64,000 nt of DNA, from NCBI RefSeq assembly GCF_900103365.1, contig NZ_LT629703.1:2914001-2978000 (forward strand), read 5' to 3'. The notes beneath the pieces were generated by a model. The model saw only the letters and a list, made by a program, of their open reading frames with translations, did no database searches and was not told the origin of the DNA. Origin of the DNA: Afipia sp. GAS231. Lineage in GTDB: Bacteria > Pseudomonadota > Alphaproteobacteria > Rhizobiales > Xanthobacteraceae. How positions within the stretch are numbered: position 1 is the stretch's first letter; the number at the start of each line of letters is the position of its first letter. This document shows, piece after piece, positions 26,842 to 33,530 of the stretch. Position numbers and translations under genes: made by a program.

Positions 26842-27741
26842 ATGACCGCCAGGCTACCCTCGCTGAATGGATTGCGCGCCTTCGAGGCTGCGGCCCGGCA
26901 TTTGAGCTTCACCCAGGCGGCTTCCGAGCTGAATGTGACGCAGACCGCGATCAGCCATCAGATCAAGCGGCTGGAGGAGGAACTCGGAATCCCGCTGTTC
27001 GTGCGCCAGAACCGGGCCCTGACCTTGACGCCGCAGGCCAAGGATTACCTCCCCGGCATCCGCGCCGCGTTCAACGATCTCAGGCTCGCCACCGACCGCC
27101 TGCTGCGCAAGGACGACGACCACGTGCTGACGGTCTCGACCCTGGCCTCGCTCGCCGCCAAATGGCTGCTGCCGCGGCTGACCGCGTTCCAGGAGGAACA
27201 CCACGGCATCGACGTGCGCATCACCACCTCGACCAGCCTGGTCGATTTCCAGCGCGACAATGTCGACGCCGCGATCCGCTACGGCCGCGGCCAATGGCCG
27301 GGGCTGCGCGCCGACTGGCTGATGGCGGACGAATTGTTCCCGGTGTGCAGCCCGAGCCTTTTGAAAGGCAACAAGTCGCTGAAATGCCCTGAGGACCTCC
27401 GCGACCATGTGCTGCTGCACACCTCCAACGCCAACAGCGACGACTGGCGGCTGTGGCTGTGGGCGGCCGGTCTGCCGGCGGATTTCTCCAAACAGCCGGG
27501 CGTGACCTTCGACATGATCTTCATGACCGTGCAGGCCGCGATCGACGGCCTCGGCGTCGCGATGGGCCGCACCGCGTACGTGCAGGAAGACATCGCCAAA
27601 GGCCGCCTCGTGGTTCCCTTCAAGATCACGCTGCCGGTCGACGCCGGCTTCTATCTGGTCTCGCCGGCCGGGCGAACCGATCCGCCAAAGCTGTCGGCGT
27701 TCCGGCAGTGGCTGGTGGCCTCGGCGCAAGCCAAGCCCTGA
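26842..27741 (+). CDS. LysR-family regulator (GcvA type), probable regulator of the tcu genes
   Basis: Regulator of 299 aa. The HTH covers about 5-62 (LPSLNGLRAFEAAARHLSFTQAASELNVTQTAISHQIKRLE), and the effector domain starts near 93. The opening and VDAAIRYGRG mark the GcvA subgroup. It is the first gene of the run tcuC-tcuA-esterase-tcuB, with a clear dyad between it and tcuC. In Salmonella the tcu genes are also controlled by a LysR protein (TcuR) encoded beside them, so the same role is proposed. Confidence 0.88.
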   Translation: MTARLPSLNGLRAFEAAARHLSFTQAASELNVTQTAISHQIKRLEEELGIPLFVRQNRALTLTPQAKDYLPGIRAAFNDLRLATDRLLRKDDDHVLTVSTLASLAAKWLLPRLTAFQEEHHGIDVRITTSTSLVDFQRDNVDAAIRYGRGQWPGLRADWLMADELFPVCSPSLLKGNKSLKCPEDLRDHVLLHTSNANSDDWRLWLWAAGLPADFSKQPGVTFDMIFMTVQAAIDGLGVAMGRTAYVQEDIAKGRLVVPFKITLPVDAGFYLVSPAGRTDPPKLSAFRQWLVASAQAKP

Positions 27742-27841
27742 AGACAAGCCAAGTCCTGAAAACAAGTTTTTCCCTGAACATCCGGTATTCCCCGTCGTCA
27801 GGGCCGCGCCCGCGATTTGCGGTTGGTCGGGCCGCGCAGGC

Positions 27842-27856
27842 GTGGCAGATTGCCAC
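27842..27856. promoter_or_regulatory. Candidate LysR binding site upstream of tcuC
   Basis: GTGGCA-GAT-TGCCAC is a perfect 15-bp interrupted dyad, ending 68 bp before the tcuC start. Length and position suit a LysR recognition site, but no footprint is known for it. Confidence 0.45.
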
Positions 27857-27924
27857 ACCAAGGCAGGATAACTGTCTCGGCCGGCGGAATTTTCGCCGCA
27901 GTGCAAACGGGGGAAACAGCCGAC

Positions 27925-29235
27925 ATGTCGCAGACGGATAATTCGGAAACACCGCAGATCAAATCGCGCATCGGCGCCATCCTGCGCGCCACCAGCGGCA
28001 ATTTCCTCGAGCAGTTCGACTTCTTCCTGTTCGGTTTCTACGCATCCTACATCGCCAAGGCGTTCTTCCCTTCCGAGAACGAGACCGCCGCCCTGCTCAA
28101 CACCTTCGGCGTGTTCTGGCTCGGCGCGCTGATGCGCCCGGTCGGCGCGATCGTGCTCGGCGCCTATATCGACCGCATCGGCCGCCGCAAGGGCCTCATT
28201 GTCACGCTGGCGATCATGGCGCTCGGCACGGTAACGATCGCCTTCTGTCCGACCTATGCGACTATCGGTGTGGCCGCCCCGGCCATCGTGCTGGTCGGCC
28301 GCCTGCTGCAGGGCTTCTCTGCCGGCGTCGAGCTTGGCGGCGTGTCGGTCTACCTCGCGGAGATTTCCACCCCCGGCAACCGCGGCTTCTATACCTCGTT
28401 CCAGTCCGCCAGCCAGCAGGTCGCGATCTTCGTCGCCGCGATCATCGGCTTCGCGTTGAGCGAGGCCATGCCGGCGGCAACCGTGGCGGCATGGGGATGG
28501 CGAATCCCGTTCTTCATCGGCTGCCTGATCATTCCCTTCATTTTCTTCCTGCGGCGGACGCTTGAGGAAACGCCGGCGTTCCTGGCGATGAAGAAGCATC
28601 CGAGCACGTCGGAAGTCTTCAGTTCGGCGGCGGTCAACTGGAAGATCATCGTGCTCGGCATGATGATGGCCGTCCTGACCACCACGACCTTCTACTTCGT
28701 CACCGTCTACACGCCGACCTTCGGCAAGACGGTGCTGAAGCTCTCGACGCAGGAGGCCCTGATCGTCACCCTTCTGGTGGCGGTCATGAATTTCATCTGG
28801 AATCCGGTCGGCGGCGCGGTATCCGACCGTATCGGCCGCAAGCCGGTGCTGCTGACGATTGCCTGCCTCGCGCTTGTGACAGCCTACCCCGCGCTCAACT
28901 GGCTTGTCGCAGCACCTACCTTCGGCAAGATGCTGGCGGTCGAAATGATGTTCTCGTTCTATTTCGGCGTCTACAGCGGCACCATGCTGGGTGCGCTGGT
29001 CGAGGTGGTGCCGGCGCATGTCCGCACCACCTGCTTCTCGCTGGCCTTTGCGCTGGCCGCCGGCCTGTTCGGCACCTTTACGCCGTTTGCCGCGACCTGG
29101 CTGATCGACCACACCGGCGACAAGGCCTCGCCCGGCTACTGGCTGATGTGCGCCGCAGCGCTTGGCATCGTCGCAGCCCTCGTGATCTATCGCGGCGGCA
29201 AGACCATCGCGACGCGAGACGTCGTGCCCGCCTAA
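27925..29235 (+). CDS. tcuC: Tricarballylate/citrate-proton symporter (MFS)
   Basis: Inner-membrane transporter of 436 aa with 12 expected membrane spans; the ATG at 27925 follows GGGGGAAA. The N-terminus ([26 protein letters not shown]) and the loop [13 protein letters not shown] are typical of the metabolite:H+ symporter branch, to which the citrate and tricarballylate carriers belong. With tcuA and tcuB downstream, tricarballylate import is the best call. Dicarboxylate or citrate uptake is the alternative. Confidence 0.88.
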
Positions 29236-29251
29236 CCCCCGCGCGCAATCG

Positions 29252-29277
29252 CCGGGCAAGCCGACAGGCTTGCCCGG
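29252..29277 (+). other. Strong hairpin between tcuC and tcuA
   Basis: CCGGGCAAGCC and GGCTTGCCCGG form a perfect 11-bp stem with a GACA loop. It lacks an immediate T-run, so it may stabilise or process the tcuC message rather than end it. Confidence 0.6.
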
Positions 29278-29319
29278 TGGCACGTTTGATTTCCATGCAA
29301 ATGAAGATAACAAGAGCGC

Positions 29320-30720
29320 ATGGTCGATTTTAATCGCAAATTCGATGTGCTGGTGATCGGCGGCGGTAACGCCGCGCTGTGCGCCGCGATCAGCGCCCGG
29401 CGCTCCGGCGCTTCGGTGCTGGTGCTGGAGGGCGCGCCGAAATTCTACCGCGGCGGCAATACCCGCCATACCCGCAACATGCGCTGCGCCCATGACGCGG
29501 CGACCGAGATCCTCACCGGCCCCTACACCGAGGAGGAGTTCTGGCAGGACCTGCTGCTGGTGACCGGCGGCCAGACCGATGAGGAACTGGCGCGCTTCAT
29601 GATCCACGAGTCCAAGGATATCCTGAACTGGGTCGTCGAACAGGGCGTGCGCTGGCAACCCTCGCTCGGCGGCACGCTCAGCCTCGGCCGCACCAACTCG
29701 TTTTTCCTCGGCGGCGGCCGGGCGATGCTGAACGCGCTGTATCTCACCGCCGAGAAACTCGGCGTCGAGATCGTCTACGACGCCGAGGTGACCAATCTGC
29801 AGATCGAGGACGGCATGTTTCTCGGCGCCACCTTGAAGCAGCCGATCAATGGCGCCGCCGAAATCCGTGCCTCGGCGCTGGTCGCGGCCGCCGGCGGCTT
29901 CGAGGCCAATATCGAATGGCTGAAGCAATATTGGGGCGATGCCGCCGACAATTTCCTGATCCGCGGCACGCCGTATAATCGCGGTTCGATTCTCAAGATG
30001 CTGCTCGACAAGGGCGTGCAGGACATCGGCGATCCCACCCAGTGCCACGCGGTGGCAATCGACGCACGCGCGCCGAAATTCGACGGCGGCATCATCACCC
30101 GCCACGACTCGGTCGTGTTCGGCATCGTCGTCAACAAGCACGCCCAGCGTTTCTACGACGAAGGCGAGGACATCTGGCCGAAGCGTTATGCGATCTGGGG
30201 CCGGCTGGTCGCGGCGCAACCCGACCAGATCGCCTACATCATCTTCGACTCCAGCGTCGTCACCAGCTTCATGCCGACGCTGTTCCCGCCGATCGGCGCA
30301 CCGACGATCGCCGAACTCGCGGTGAAGCTCGAACTCGATCCGGCGGCGCTGGAAACGACCATGGCCGACTTCAACGCCGCGGTGCAGCCCGGCACCTTCG
30401 ACCACACCATTCTCGATGACTGCCGCACCGAGGGCCTGACGCCAGCGAAGACGCATTGGGCGCGCAAGATCGATGCGCCGCCTTATCTCGCCTATCCGGT
30501 GCGGCCCGGCATCACCTTCACCTATCTCGGCACCCGCGTGAACAAGCAGTCGTGCATGCTGATGAAGGACGGCAAGCCTTCCGCCAACATGTTCGCGGCC
30601 GGCGAGATCATGGCCGGCAACGTGCTCGGCAAGGGCTACGCCGCCGGCATCGGCATGACCATCGGCAGCGTGTTCGGACGGGTGGCGGGACGGGAAGCGG
30701 CGAAGAATGCCAAGAATTAA
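29320..30720 (+). CDS. tcuA: FAD-dependent tricarballylate dehydrogenase
   Basis: Flavoprotein of 466 aa of the fumarate reductase/succinate dehydrogenase family. The FAD-binding motif VLVIGGGNAALCAAISAR is at 10-27, TRHTRNMRCAHD follows, and the C-terminal flavin motif is FAAGEIMAGNVLGKGYAAGIGMTIG. TcuA oxidises tricarballylate to cis-aconitate, which enters the TCA cycle. It is soluble or membrane-peripheral and passes electrons to TcuB. The translation site upstream is weak. It sits between tcuC and the esterase gene. Confidence 0.93.
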   Translation: MVDFNRKFDVLVIGGGNAALCAAISARRSGASVLVLEGAPKFYRGGNTRHTRNMRCAHDAATEILTGPYTEEEFWQDLLLVTGGQTDEELARFMIHESKDILNWVVEQGVRWQPSLGGTLSLGRTNSFFLGGGRAMLNALYLTAEKLGVEIVYDAEVTNLQIEDGMFLGATLKQPINGAAEIRASALVAAAGGFEANIEWLKQYWGDAADNFLIRGTPYNRGSILKMLLDKGVQDIGDPTQCHAVAIDARAPKFDGGIITRHDSVVFGIVVNKHAQRFYDEGEDIWPKRYAIWGRLVAAQPDQIAYIIFDSSVVTSFMPTLFPPIGAPTIAELAVKLELDPAALETTMADFNAAVQPGTFDHTILDDCRTEGLTPAKTHWARKIDAPPYLAYPVRPGITFTYLGTRVNKQSCMLMKDGKPSANMFAAGEIMAGNVLGKGYAAGIGMTIGSVFGRVAGREAAKNAKN

Positions 30721-30741
30721 ATTTCGCCTATGGGAGGGTTC

Positions 30742-31773
30742 ATGCCACGCCTTGCGATCGTTTCCACCGCGGCCCTGCTGATGGCATCGACTTTGGCCAA
30801 TGCCGCCGAGCCGATCGCGTTGCGCGACATGGGCTCGTTCCATGTTGGCGGCCGGCTGGTCGAAATCACCGGTAAGCCGGTCAAGGAAGTCACCTTCACG
30901 CTGGGCGGCGTGCCCGCGAAGGTCGATCCCAACGGCACCTACCAGGTCGAGCAGATGTACGTTCAGTATTTCCTGCCCGCCAACGAGAAGGGCGCGTATC
31001 CGCTCTTGATGTGGCACGGCGGCGGGCTGACCGGTGTCACCTGGGAAACCACGCCCGACGGCCGCGAAGGTTTCCTGAATTATTTTCTGCGCAAGGGCTG
31101 GAGCGTCTACAATTCCGACGCGGTGGAGCGCGGGCGCGCCGGCTGGGCACAATATCCGGACATCTTCAAGGGCGAGCCGGTGTTTCTCACCACCGCCAAT
31201 CCGTTCCAGCGCTTTCGCATCGGCGACGGCCCGGACTCCTACGATCCGGATCCAGCCAAACGCAAATTGATGCCCGGCAGCCAGTTCCCGAACGACGGCT
31301 ACGAGAACTTCGTCAAGCAGAACGTGCCGCGCTGGACCACGACCGATGACGCCATCGTCGCGGCCTATATCGCCGAGATCGACCGCGTCGGCCCGTCCAT
31401 CATCATGTTCCACAGCCAGGCCGGCAGTTTCGGCTTCAAGGTGGCGCAGGCGCGGCCCGACAAGGTCAAGGCGCTGATTGCGCTTGAACCGGCCGGTGTC
31501 GGCGATCCCGACAAGGCCGACGTGCTGAAGAACATTCCGACGCTGATCGTCTATGGCGATTACATCGAGAAAGATTCGCGCTGGCCGAAGATCCGCGCCA
31601 CCGGCATCGCGTTCGGCGACAAGATCAAGGCCGCCGGCGGCAGCGTCGATGTCGTCGACCTGCCGCAGGCCGGCATCAAGGGCAATTCGCACATGATGAT
31701 GATGGACAAGAACAACGCCGAGGTCGCCGCCCTGATCCAGAAATGGCTCGAAGGCAAGGGGCTGACGAAGTAA
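30742..31773 (+). CDS. Secreted alpha/beta hydrolase (esterase 713-like) inside the tcu operon
   Basis: Esterase-type hydrolase of 343 aa from the ATG at 30742, after GGGAGGG. A signal peptide ends near residue 22 (LANAAE), so it acts in the periplasm or outside. The oxyanion loop is WHGGGLTG (91-98), the nucleophile is Ser225 in FHSQAG, the acid is probably Glu249 (ALEPAGVG) and the base His317 (GNSHMMMM). HSQxG with a Glu acid is the esterase 713 pattern. It starts 21 bp after tcuA and ends 33 bp before tcuB, so it is part of the operon and may release tricarballylate from an ester. Confidence 0.85.
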   Translation: MPRLAIVSTAALLMASTLANAAEPIALRDMGSFHVGGRLVEITGKPVKEVTFTLGGVPAKVDPNGTYQVEQMYVQYFLPANEKGAYPLLMWHGGGLTGVTWETTPDGREGFLNYFLRKGWSVYNSDAVERGRAGWAQYPDIFKGEPVFLTTANPFQRFRIGDGPDSYDPDPAKRKLMPGSQFPNDGYENFVKQNVPRWTTTDDAIVAAYIAEIDRVGPSIIMFHSQAGSFGFKVAQARPDKVKALIALEPAGVGDPDKADVLKNIPTLIVYGDYIEKDSRWPKIRATGIAFGDKIKAAGGSVDVVDLPQAGIKGNSHMMMMDKNNAEVAALIQKWLEGKGLTK

Positions 31774-31806
31774 CAAGGCCCGGTCTCGGGCAGGAAGCAA
31801 CGCAAG

Positions 31807-32913
31807 ATGCACGGAACGCGAATTCTCGAAGAGGCCGACCGCCTGATGACGGTCTGCAATTCCTGCCGCTATTGCGAGGGCCTCTGCGCGGTGTTTCCGG
31901 CGATGGAAATGCGACGCGCGTTTTCCGACGGCGACCTTAACTACCTCGCCAACCTCTGCCACTCCTGCGGCGCCTGCTACACCGACTGCCAGTTCTCGCC
32001 GCCGCATGAATTCAACGTCAATGTGCCGCAGACGCTGGCGGTGGCGCGCAACGAATCCTACGCTGCGTATGTGTGGCCGCGCGCTTTTGCCGGTGCGTTC
32101 GCGCGCAACGGGCTCGTCATCAGCCTCGTGGCCGCGCTCAGCGTCGCCGCTTTCATTTTCGGTTTTGCCGCGTTCACCGATCCTTTGGTGCTGCTTGGCG
32201 TCCATACCGGCCCGGGCGCGTTCTACAAATTGATGCCGCATAACGCGATGGCGGCGCTGTTCGGCGCCGCCTTCCTCTACGCGATCGTAGCCCTGGTGAT
32301 GGGCGTCGTTGCGTTCTGGCGCGACATCGGCGAGCCCGTCGGTATGAAGACCGACTTCAAGTCGCTGCTGCAGGCGATGCGCGATGCCGGCGAGTTGCGC
32401 TATCTCGATGGCGGCGGGGTCGGCTGCTTCAACGAGGACGACAAGCCGACCGATCGCCGCAAGCTGTATCACCACCTCACCTTCTATGGTTTCGGGCTGT
32501 GCTTTGCCGCCACCTGCGTCGCGACGCTGTATCATTACCTGTTCGCGCGCGAGGCGCCCTATGCGTGGTGGGATCTGCCCGTCGTGCTCGGCACGCTCGG
32601 CGGCATCGGGCTTCTGATCGGACCGATCGGCCTGCTCGCCGAGAAATGGAAGCGCGATCCCGTGCTGGTCGACGGGACCAGGACGGGAATGGACGTTGCC
32701 TTCATCGCCATGCTGTTCCTGACCAGCCTGACCGGCATCGCGCTGCTGCTGTTCCGCGATACGGCCGCGATGGGCCCGTTGCTGGCGCTGCATCTCGGCG
32801 TGGTGTTCTCGCTGTTCGTCACCATGCCTTACGGCAAGTTCGTGCACGGGATTTATCGGTTCGTCGCACTGGTGCGGTATGCGCGGGAACGGCAGATCAT
32901 GCACACATCGTAG
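31807..32913 (+). CDS. tcuB: Tricarballylate utilisation protein B, iron-sulfur membrane protein
   Basis: Membrane electron carrier of 368 aa. Two 4Fe-4S motifs lie at the N-terminus: Cys17, 20, 23, 27 and Cys51, 54, 57, 61. Six or so hydrophobic segments follow from about residue 100, with candidate haem histidines in KLYHHLTFYG and LYHYLF. TcuB reoxidises the flavin of TcuA and feeds electrons to the membrane pool. Its stop codon TAG is the first three bases of a dispersed repeat. This layout is also called CitB. Confidence 0.93.
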   Translation: MHGTRILEEADRLMTVCNSCRYCEGLCAVFPAMEMRRAFSDGDLNYLANLCHSCGACYTDCQFSPPHEFNVNVPQTLAVARNESYAAYVWPRAFAGAFARNGLVISLVAALSVAAFIFGFAAFTDPLVLLGVHTGPGAFYKLMPHNAMAALFGAAFLYAIVALVMGVVAFWRDIGEPVGMKTDFKSLLQAMRDAGELRYLDGGGVGCFNEDDKPTDRRKLYHHLTFYGFGLCFAATCVATLYHYLFAREAPYAWWDLPVVLGTLGGIGLLIGPIGLLAEKWKRDPVLVDGTRTGMDVAFIAMLFLTSLTGIALLLFRDTAAMGPLLALHLGVVFSLFVTMPYGKFVHGIYRFVALVRYARERQIMHTS

Positions 32914-33000
32914 GGTGGGTTAGCGACGCGTAACCCACCGAGGGTCTCTCAACGCGGATAGTTGGGCCGGTGGGTTACGGCTTCGCCTAACCCACCCTAC
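32911..33000. repeat. Dispersed palindrome, 'TAGGGTGGGTTAGCG' form
   Basis: TAGGGTGGGTTAGCGACGCG at the left and CGCCTAACCCACCCTA at the right, related to the 'TAGGGTGGGCAAAGCG' copies but with AACCCACC arms. It starts on the tcuB stop codon. Confidence 0.8.
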
Positions 33001-33029
33001 AAACGCGGCTTCGCGTTCTCGCGGCATCA

Positions 33030-33530
33030 TCTGCCCGAAGTTTTGCAATCAACCTTGCCCCCGAAATCAGAGGGCACAGGGAAGACCGGGTGCGCGCCGC
33101 ACCCGCGGTCTCATGTGCGATAGTTGCAACAAGATGCTGCACATGAGCATACAGGTTTGGCGGAAGCCTCCGGCCTTCCCTGCGCAATGGCTTTACGGCT
33201 TATACGAGATCGTCCTGGTGACCCTGCGTTTCGTGACACCATCGCTCTGGGGCAGCGTTGGCTGCCTTCGAACTTGACGCCTGCATCGGGGCGTCCGACC
33301 CAAACGATTTCACCGTACGCAAGTGCCGCGCTCGTCAGTCGCGACCTTACGTCCACCGCTCCCTGTCCCTCGTTTGCGACGATGGCCCACGCCCCTCTGG
33401 CGGGACAGGATGGCGGGAGTCCTAGATCTGATTTGCCCGACGGCTCAACGGAAATATTTTTATCCGAAGGGCTGGACAGACTTTTGGTGATTTGCCCGTC
33501 GGGTTACTTTGTCGCAGCCGTTGCCTTCAC
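33030..33530. other. Structured dispersed element, possible ncRNA or relic; no convincing gene
   Basis: This stretch has no supportable gene. Bases 33077-33182 can fold as a three-way junction: an outer 13-bp stem (33077-33089 with 33170-33182, one mismatch), a hairpin GGGTGCG/CGCACCC (33088-33104) and a hairpin CTCATGTGC/GCACATGAG (33110-33147). From memory, similar sequence is common between genes in Bradyrhizobium and gives spurious short protein entries; this needs a BLASTN check. Orientation is unknown. Confidence 0.4.

Follow-up and report, generated by a model that had tools for sequence, protein, structure and literature searches.

Breakdown of tricarballylate is known as the use of the free acid. 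In Salmonella the operon consists of the genes tcuA, tcuB and tcuC, as given in a passage of PMC10468695, and TcuA oxidises tricarballylate to cis-aconitate, according to the title of a reference within that paper. Two esterases, esterase 713 of an Alcaligenes sp. (PDB 1QLW, 2WKW) and SulE of Hansschlegelia zhihuaiae (PDB 7Y0L, 8GOL and others), free acids from methyl or ethyl esters in which the acid is the bulky part; passages of PMC10356948 name man-made substrates for both, a lotrafiban intermediate for esterase 713 and sulfonylurea herbicides for SulE. The fumonisin carboxylesterase FumD frees tricarballylate from an ester (stated in a passage of PMC10204369), and the fumonisins carry tricarballyl groups on a long aminopentol (likewise PMC4843849). 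Here we describe a locus in Afipia sp. GAS231 in which the gene for an esterase 713/SulE-family enzyme lies between tcuA and tcuB, an arrangement that recurs in many members of the window's genus (Bradyrhizobium). The window is the whole stretch of DNA that was analysed, 64,000 nucleotides of contig NZ_LT629703.1 (2,914,001 to 2,978,000), and positions below are counted within it.

The esterase gene at the tcuA-tcuB junction

Genes for a LysR-family regulator, TcuC (27925..29235), TcuA (29320..30720), a serine hydrolase (30742..31773) and TcuB (31807..32913) follow one another in one direction on the + strand, with spacers of 84 bp between tcuC and tcuA, 21 bp between tcuA and the hydrolase gene and 33 bp between the latter and tcuB. 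The initial annotation had described tcuC, tcuA, the hydrolase gene and tcuB on one strand with the same two short spacers, and this layout holds. The Tcu proteins belong to the same three families as those of Salmonella; the difference is that the esterase gene stands between tcuA and tcuB and that tcuC comes first. By curated cut-offs, TcuA, of the FAD-dependent tricarballylate dehydrogenase family, exceeds both of its models (NF006130, 718 bits, cut-off 369; TIGR02485, 593 bits, cut-off 373), and TcuC, of the MFS tricarballylate/proton symporter family, exceeds its own (NF011656, 661 bits, cut-off 445). TcuB, of the 4Fe-4S membrane protein family that is the electron acceptor of TcuA, exceeds one of two (TIGR02484, 442 bits, cut-off 247; NF011607, 462 bits, below its cut-off of 524).

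A survey of tcuA-tcuB neighbourhoods, which the initial annotation had proposed, ties the hydrolase to this junction in the genus, so that the first condition named there as a refutation, a hydrolase unlinked to tcu genes in other genomes, does not apply within it. Esterase, TcuA and TcuB were searched separately in 146 genomes of the genus and their coordinates compared. TcuA (E 1e-90) and TcuB (E 1e-20) matches were each found in 144 genomes, among the matches listed for TcuA. Orthologues of the esterase (at least 83% identity) occupy 59 loci in 58 genomes, a count that leaves out four TcuA places of 48-52%, one of the two halves into which the tcuB of G078 is split, and two further fragments of esterase matches. 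At 54 of the 59 loci the order is tcuA-esterase-tcuB on one strand, with gaps between matched ends of 12-244 and 7-179 bp. At four others (in G033, G077, G090 and G131) tcuB lies directly downstream and the tcuA match is at the edge of another contig; at the last, in G098, the esterase gene stands behind LysR and tcuC genes with no tcuAB there. The 146 genomes also hold 40 more distant relatives (9 at 50-52%, 31 at 33-38%), not one of which lies within 10 kb of tcuA or tcuB. The conserved position at the junction and the absence of these relatives from tcu surroundings rule out chance neighbours.

A second collection, the best 80 of 235 loci, gave a similar picture: 61 loci reach at least 82% identity, and 58 of them are tcuA-esterase-tcuB, two are esterase-tcuB at a contig edge, and one, in STM 3843, is the G098 contig with the esterase gene behind tcuC. 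The 19 loci at 66-79% in this collection of the best 80 have no tcuA, tcuB or tcuC orthologue in flanks of up to 4 kb. The two collections share species and are therefore not independent.

Some genomes depart from the common layout. STM 3843 (G098; L063 1-12500, L281), with its LysR-tcuC-esterase order, has a divergent tcuAB pair (59% and 52% identical) on another contig, and G111 (L069, L070; L270 is B. niftali) has two tcu operons, one with the esterase gene and one without. tcuB was matched in two or three pieces at G078:C1:3272064-3273151 and G474:C1:1583212-1584300, and a short tcuA match lies at G133:C1:1687867-1689036; these are perhaps broken genes or assembly errors.

The genes upstream of the junction vary. 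Among 31 TcuC places seen on a tcuA or esterase contig, tcuC lies directly upstream of tcuA at 12 loci that have the esterase gene and at 18 whose contig lacks it; G077 and G131, two of these 18, carry it on another contig. In the second main clade, the two esterase operons examined (L064, L070) have HupE/UreJ- and tRNA-editing-type genes upstream and no tcuC there; a molybdopterin enzyme is next in the upstream series of L070, and L064 has a divergent GntR/FCD gene. Hence, tcuA-esterase-tcuB is the stable unit, and the LysR-tcuC order of the window is one of several.

How did the esterase gene come to lie at the junction? The tree built from 72 esterases includes 20 tcu-linked sequences (from 57; L064, the same locus as L036, was left out), which form one clade with support of 92, and the label changes once. 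A single origin is well supported by the trees, and the gene seems to have come into the tcuA-tcuB junction once, early in the genus. When presence is mapped on a tree of TcuA+TcuB with 93 rows (55 with the esterase, 35 without, 3 from outside), it changes at least 14 times, whereas 500 label shuffles average 27.9 changes and never fall below 19; 40 of its 90 inner branches have support below 80, and such change counts cannot tell gain from loss. The 35 esterase-free junctions were fetched from 88, with L029 (no tcuA on the contig) left out. In 21 of them, tcuB starts 14 nt inside the end of tcuA. Three genomes that belong to the family but not to the genus (L158, L159, L160) show the same overlap, and L155 does too if its tcuB starts at the conserved Met, so the overlap is probably ancestral. 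In the 15 esterase operons viewed and in 13 of the 14 remaining esterase-free operons, tcuA ends in a copy or near-copy of the overlap and tcuB begins with its own; the fourteenth, L222, is divergent. Probably one insertion duplicated the overlap and repeated losses followed, some leaving a spacer. The remaining cases would be explained either by deletions between the short repeats that restored the overlap exactly or by lineages exchanging operons.

Where present, the esterase gene is under purifying selection and evolves like its neighbours. Across 66 pairs from 12 loci, its median dN/dS is 0.128, compared with 0.112 for tcuA and 0.151 for tcuB, and its median dS is 0.57, compared with 0.54 and 0.66.

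Family, catalytic residues and signal peptide

By sequence and predicted fold, the 343-residue product is a member of the esterase 713/SulE family. Homology to esterase 713 (1qlw, E 7e-52) covers residues 22-336, nearly the full length, and the predicted fold is an alpha/beta hydrolase close to 1QLW, SulE and 4Q34. The catalytic triad named in the initial annotation, Ser225, Glu249 and His317 (codons 31414..31416, 31486..31488 and 31690..31692), is found at these positions and aligns with S206, E230 and H298 of esterase 713. The nucleophile motif, FHSQAG, is without the first Gly of GXSXG, which a passage of PMC10356948 gives as a family trait. Arg157 (codon 31210..31212) aligns with Arg150 of SulE, which SulE requires, the R150A variant being inactive (described in the same source); esterase 713 has Ile144 at this place. 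Arg157 is present in at least 95% of 57 tcu-linked and in all of 29 unlinked orthologues, and in none of 11 paralogues (about 44-51%). Some fetched esterase loci, among them L064, L130, L135, L136 and L145, were left out of this residue comparison. SulE has a large pocket, 2210 cubic angstroms according to PMC10356948, that admits herbicides, and is described as a dimer in which a domain-swapped lid loop covers the partner's active site. In the window enzyme, predicted as a monomer, strands 27-42 and 65-79 could form a lid hairpin of the SulE type.

The enzyme is probably exported. Its N-terminus, MPRLAIVSTAALLMASTLANA-AEP, reads by inspection as a Sec-type signal peptide (30742..30804) with cleavage likely after Ala21 (ANA-AEP), and a strict Sec signal pattern is present in 49 of 56 tcu-linked orthologues. 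Among outside loci, a lipobox pattern was found at 14 of 17, 13 of them convincing by eye. An in-frame ATG also lies at 30730; the start at 30742 is preferred because a putative ribosome-binding site, GGGAGGG (30732..30738, + strand), fits it.

A Pfam scan matched the enzyme to no family at E 0.001, COesterase included. FumD is a type-B carboxylesterase (PF00135), and by Pfam family the two enzymes are set apart; FumD frees tricarballylate from an ester, as the window enzyme would on the proposal made below. Without a Pfam match, FumD is at best a functional analogy.

Surroundings of the operon and of relatives elsewhere

The LysR-family gene ahead of the window operon (26842..27741, + strand) encodes Pfam HTH_1 and LysR_substrate domains, is placed in the GcvA subfamily by NCBIfam (NF008352, 397 bits, cut-off 288) and is a candidate regulator of the tcu cluster. 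The LysR upstream of tcuC-esterase in STM 3843 is 76% identical to it. A consensus scan of 27700-33150 found no sigma-70-type promoter, and such a scan says little in this bacterial group. The tcuC-tcuA spacer holds a hairpin with a 14 bp stem and a 4 nt loop (29249..29280, + strand) without a T run. Folding of 29236-29319 gave -36.9 kcal/mol (z -3.58), none of 200 shuffles was equally low, and no terminator-like site was called there. Given this strong hairpin, tcuC and tcuA-esterase-tcuB may not form a single uninterrupted transcript, and the hairpin is a possible processing, attenuation or partial stop site. Directly after tcuB (32910-33000) stands a palindromic intergenic element with arms GTAGGGTGGGTTAG and CTAACCCACCCTAC, 63 nt apart. 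The arm has 86 exact copies in the genome, 40 in forward and 46 in reverse orientation, against none for the reversed control, and arms often stand in facing pairs about 65-80 bp apart.

In 398 genomes of the phylum, the esterase (E 1e-15) was found in 20 and TcuB (E 1e-25) in 36; adjacency occurs in the window's genus only, and in the three genomes beyond it that have both, the two genes are on separate contigs. In 119 genomes of the family, the esterase (E 1e-80) was found in 31 and TcuB (E 1e-25) in 46. Two of these genomes, G640 and G602, from one genus, have esterase and TcuB genes on one contig, 9.4 kb and 17.4 kb apart with other genes between, which was not counted as linkage.

Relatives outside the junction have varied neighbours, whose functions come from one or a few scanned members per cluster. 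At 10 of 54 relative loci, the esterase gene lies upstream of a PEPCK-family gene (by clustering, with one member scanned). These family loci outside the genus (L119, L121, L122, L124-L129, L132) have one or two tandem esterase relatives, which in 8 of the 10 stand behind a response-regulator/kinase pair taken for a ChvGI-like one. A simple gene finder called no esterase in 3 of the 54 loci (L057, L115, L145), nor in L306. In two members of the order (L143, L144), an aminotransferase class I/II gene lies directly upstream of a 50% relative (one member scanned). Of four paralogue loci read within the genus, three have an MFS carrier nearby.

Betaproteobacterial relatives lie in clusters with sulfatase, TctC receptor, CCG, MR_MLE and Ldh_2 proteins. 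At L302, L303, L304, L308 and L309 the cluster recurs without being identical, sometimes with an MR_MLE or TcuA-like enzyme, and most of these relatives have a lipoprotein-type signal; this is possibly an uncharacterised catabolic operon. One betaproteobacterial locus has a TcuA-like dehydrogenase gene about 0.6 kb downstream (NF006130, 523 bits, cut-off 369; TIGR02485, 241 bits, below 373), and another has a similar neighbour on the other strand with both models below cut-off (344 and 213). Plasmid-borne relatives (48-59%) stand beside MmgE/PrpD in Roseomonas, a tricarboxylate-type receptor in Variovorax and TRAP genes in Thalassospira; a 55% relative in Variovorax also has an SMP-30/gluconolactonase-type gene nearby. 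On a Thalassospira marina plasmid (L314), the 48% relative directly follows the TRAP genes and is itself followed by a 3-hydroxyacyl-CoA dehydrogenase gene; the opposite strand carries a BKACE-type gene. We take this neighbourhood to resemble one for carnitine breakdown, where the ester might be an acylcarnitine.

Substrate of the esterase and competing explanations

The simplest inference is that this group of orthologues releases polar organic acids from their small-alkyl esters and came under tcu control in Bradyrhizobium. We consider it quite possible, if short of probable, that a captured, exported esterase frees an acid like tricarballylate from an alkyl ester for TcuA and TcuB. An esterase 713/SulE-family enzyme would have entered the junction by a single capture early in Bradyrhizobium and would since have been an optional module, retained or lost. 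Presumably co-transcribed with tcu genes, the enzyme would be exported by its Sec-type signal and act in the periplasm, where it would cut a small-alkyl ester (for example, a methyl or ethyl ester) of an organic acid used by the pathway. Tricarballylate, or a closely similar tricarboxylate such as aconitate, is the most likely candidate for this acid, which would then enter via TcuC where present and otherwise via another carrier, and TcuA and TcuB would oxidise it, tricarballylate to cis-aconitate, for the tricarboxylic acid cycle. The suggestion that this acid is tricarballylate has one source, the family models of TcuA, TcuB and TcuC. The initial annotation had drawn the same path from an ester outside to an acid inside to oxidation by TcuAB. 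The linkage in the genus and the acid-related contexts elsewhere make it sound; against it, neither adjacency to tcuAB nor co-occurrence with TcuB beyond chance was found in the genomes searched outside the genus. An ester made by the cell itself, aconitate methyl ester, was considered and rejected: no trans-aconitate methyltransferase exceeded the cut-off in the bacterium's own genome, making an internal source unlikely here. Of 14 control genomes, one gave a score above the cut-off of this model.

Several observations weigh against this proposal. Among the 146 genomes, 88 have no esterase orthologue, although TcuA and TcuB are matched in nearly all, and tcuC lies directly upstream in 12 of the 54 complete tcuA-esterase-tcuB loci and is missing there from 42. 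Without the five genomes of the genus, 12 of 114 family genomes have both esterase and TcuB (29 with the esterase, 41 with TcuB; 10.4 expected by chance), and in none of the 114 are esterase and tcuAB adjacent. A tcu-specific cationic pocket was sought by comparing tcu-linked with unlinked orthologues and was not seen. Five columns separate the two groups at the chosen threshold, two of them cationic (R215 and K343). At the position of R215, 28 of 29 unlinked copies have Lys, K343 is the final residue, and most cationic residues of the tcu-linked copies recur in the unlinked ones; thus, no pocket newly fitted to tricarballylate is seen, and this type of pocket seems to predate the tcu linkage. 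Receptor genes count on both sides. In favour, a TctC-like gene lies within 4 kb at 18 of 76 loci outside the junction, with the best match on the esterase strand in 17 of the 18, and all six such genes scanned are Pfam TctC; against, the other 58 loci have none within that distance. The count takes the best match per locus (L111 has a further one on the opposite strand), and at several loci the sequence stops short of 4 kb. Betaproteobacteria abound in TctC/Bug receptors, neighbours frequently share a strand and many of the loci are related, so the association is a trend, not proof.

There are other explanations for the position of the gene. The functional linkage could be real and the acid a different one, with the Bradyrhizobium TcuAB oxidising another carboxylic acid that the esterase frees. 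This would fit the differing acid-degrading neighbourhoods of relatives (the betaproteobacterial clusters; the TRAP, 3-hydroxyacyl-CoA dehydrogenase and BKACE-type genes of Thalassospira), the 42 of 54 complete loci without tcuC directly upstream, two of which, as examined, have HupE/UreJ- and tRNA-editing-type genes there and one GntR/FCD, and the origin of the name TcuA in family models. TcuA scores far above both of its cut-offs, however, TcuB above one of two and TcuC above its own, and the window has all three, which leaves this explanation rather unlikely. Equally, the enzyme could be a broad-range esterase with no metabolic tie to tcu, carried in the operon for its expression. Varied contexts outside the genus, such as that upstream of the PEPCK-family gene, a residue pattern common to unlinked copies and the missing excess of co-occurrence with TcuB in the family all suit such a passenger. 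Its position has nonetheless been held through the divergence of the genus under purifying selection, and in two samplings (the second being the best 80 of 235 loci) no member at 82-83% identity or more was found away from a tcu gene, so we regard a mere passenger as somewhat improbable.

A bond other than an alkyl ester is a further option: the hydrolase might act on a tricarboxylate lactone, anhydride or thioester, or remove a toxic ester instead of feeding the pathway. Hydrolases with this alpha/beta architecture differ in the kind of bond they attack, and the lactonase-like gene near the Variovorax relative is in keeping with the idea. Both characterised family members are carboxylesterases, as passages of PMC10356948 describe them, and we consider this option highly improbable. 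The initial annotation had offered a fungal ester of the fumonisin or AAL-toxin type as an example substrate. TcuA does act on tricarballylate in Salmonella (as a title cited in PMC10468695 has it), passages of PMC4843849 and PMC10204369 describe bacteria that free tricarballylate from fumonisin, and an aminotransferase of class I/II, an enzyme kind also found in bacterial fumonisin breakdown, lies upstream of the 50% relatives in L143 and L144. No aminotransferase is among the eight window genes scanned with Pfam, however, and the missing Pfam match keeps the enzyme outside the family of FumD. In addition, fumonisins, with tricarballyl groups on a long aminopentol, are the reverse of the family's substrates: the characterised relatives act on esters in which a small alkyl group is joined to a bulky acid. 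The absent match and the family chemistry lead us to reject such an esterase as the leading reading, and a natural substrate of this type is very unlikely indeed.

The linkage is real and conserved; it is made of known parts and is a variant of the tcu operon that is not remarked on in the literature found. Among the open-licence papers that the searches listed, none has a title or abstract start that concerns a tcu operon with an esterase, and the part of PMC3669393 that reports tcuAB makes no link to one. Tentatively, the alkyl-ester proposal can be taken further, to a dedicated Bradyrhizobium route for tricarboxylate esters, in which the exported esterase would cut alkyl esters of tricarballylate or aconitate and the natural role of the esterase 713/SulE family would be to release acids for adjacent uptake and oxidation systems. 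If so, the acid would arrive as an ester for many Bradyrhizobium species, which would indicate that soil or the surroundings of roots hold a class of esters so far overlooked, and a natural substrate class would be suggested for the esterase 713/SulE family.

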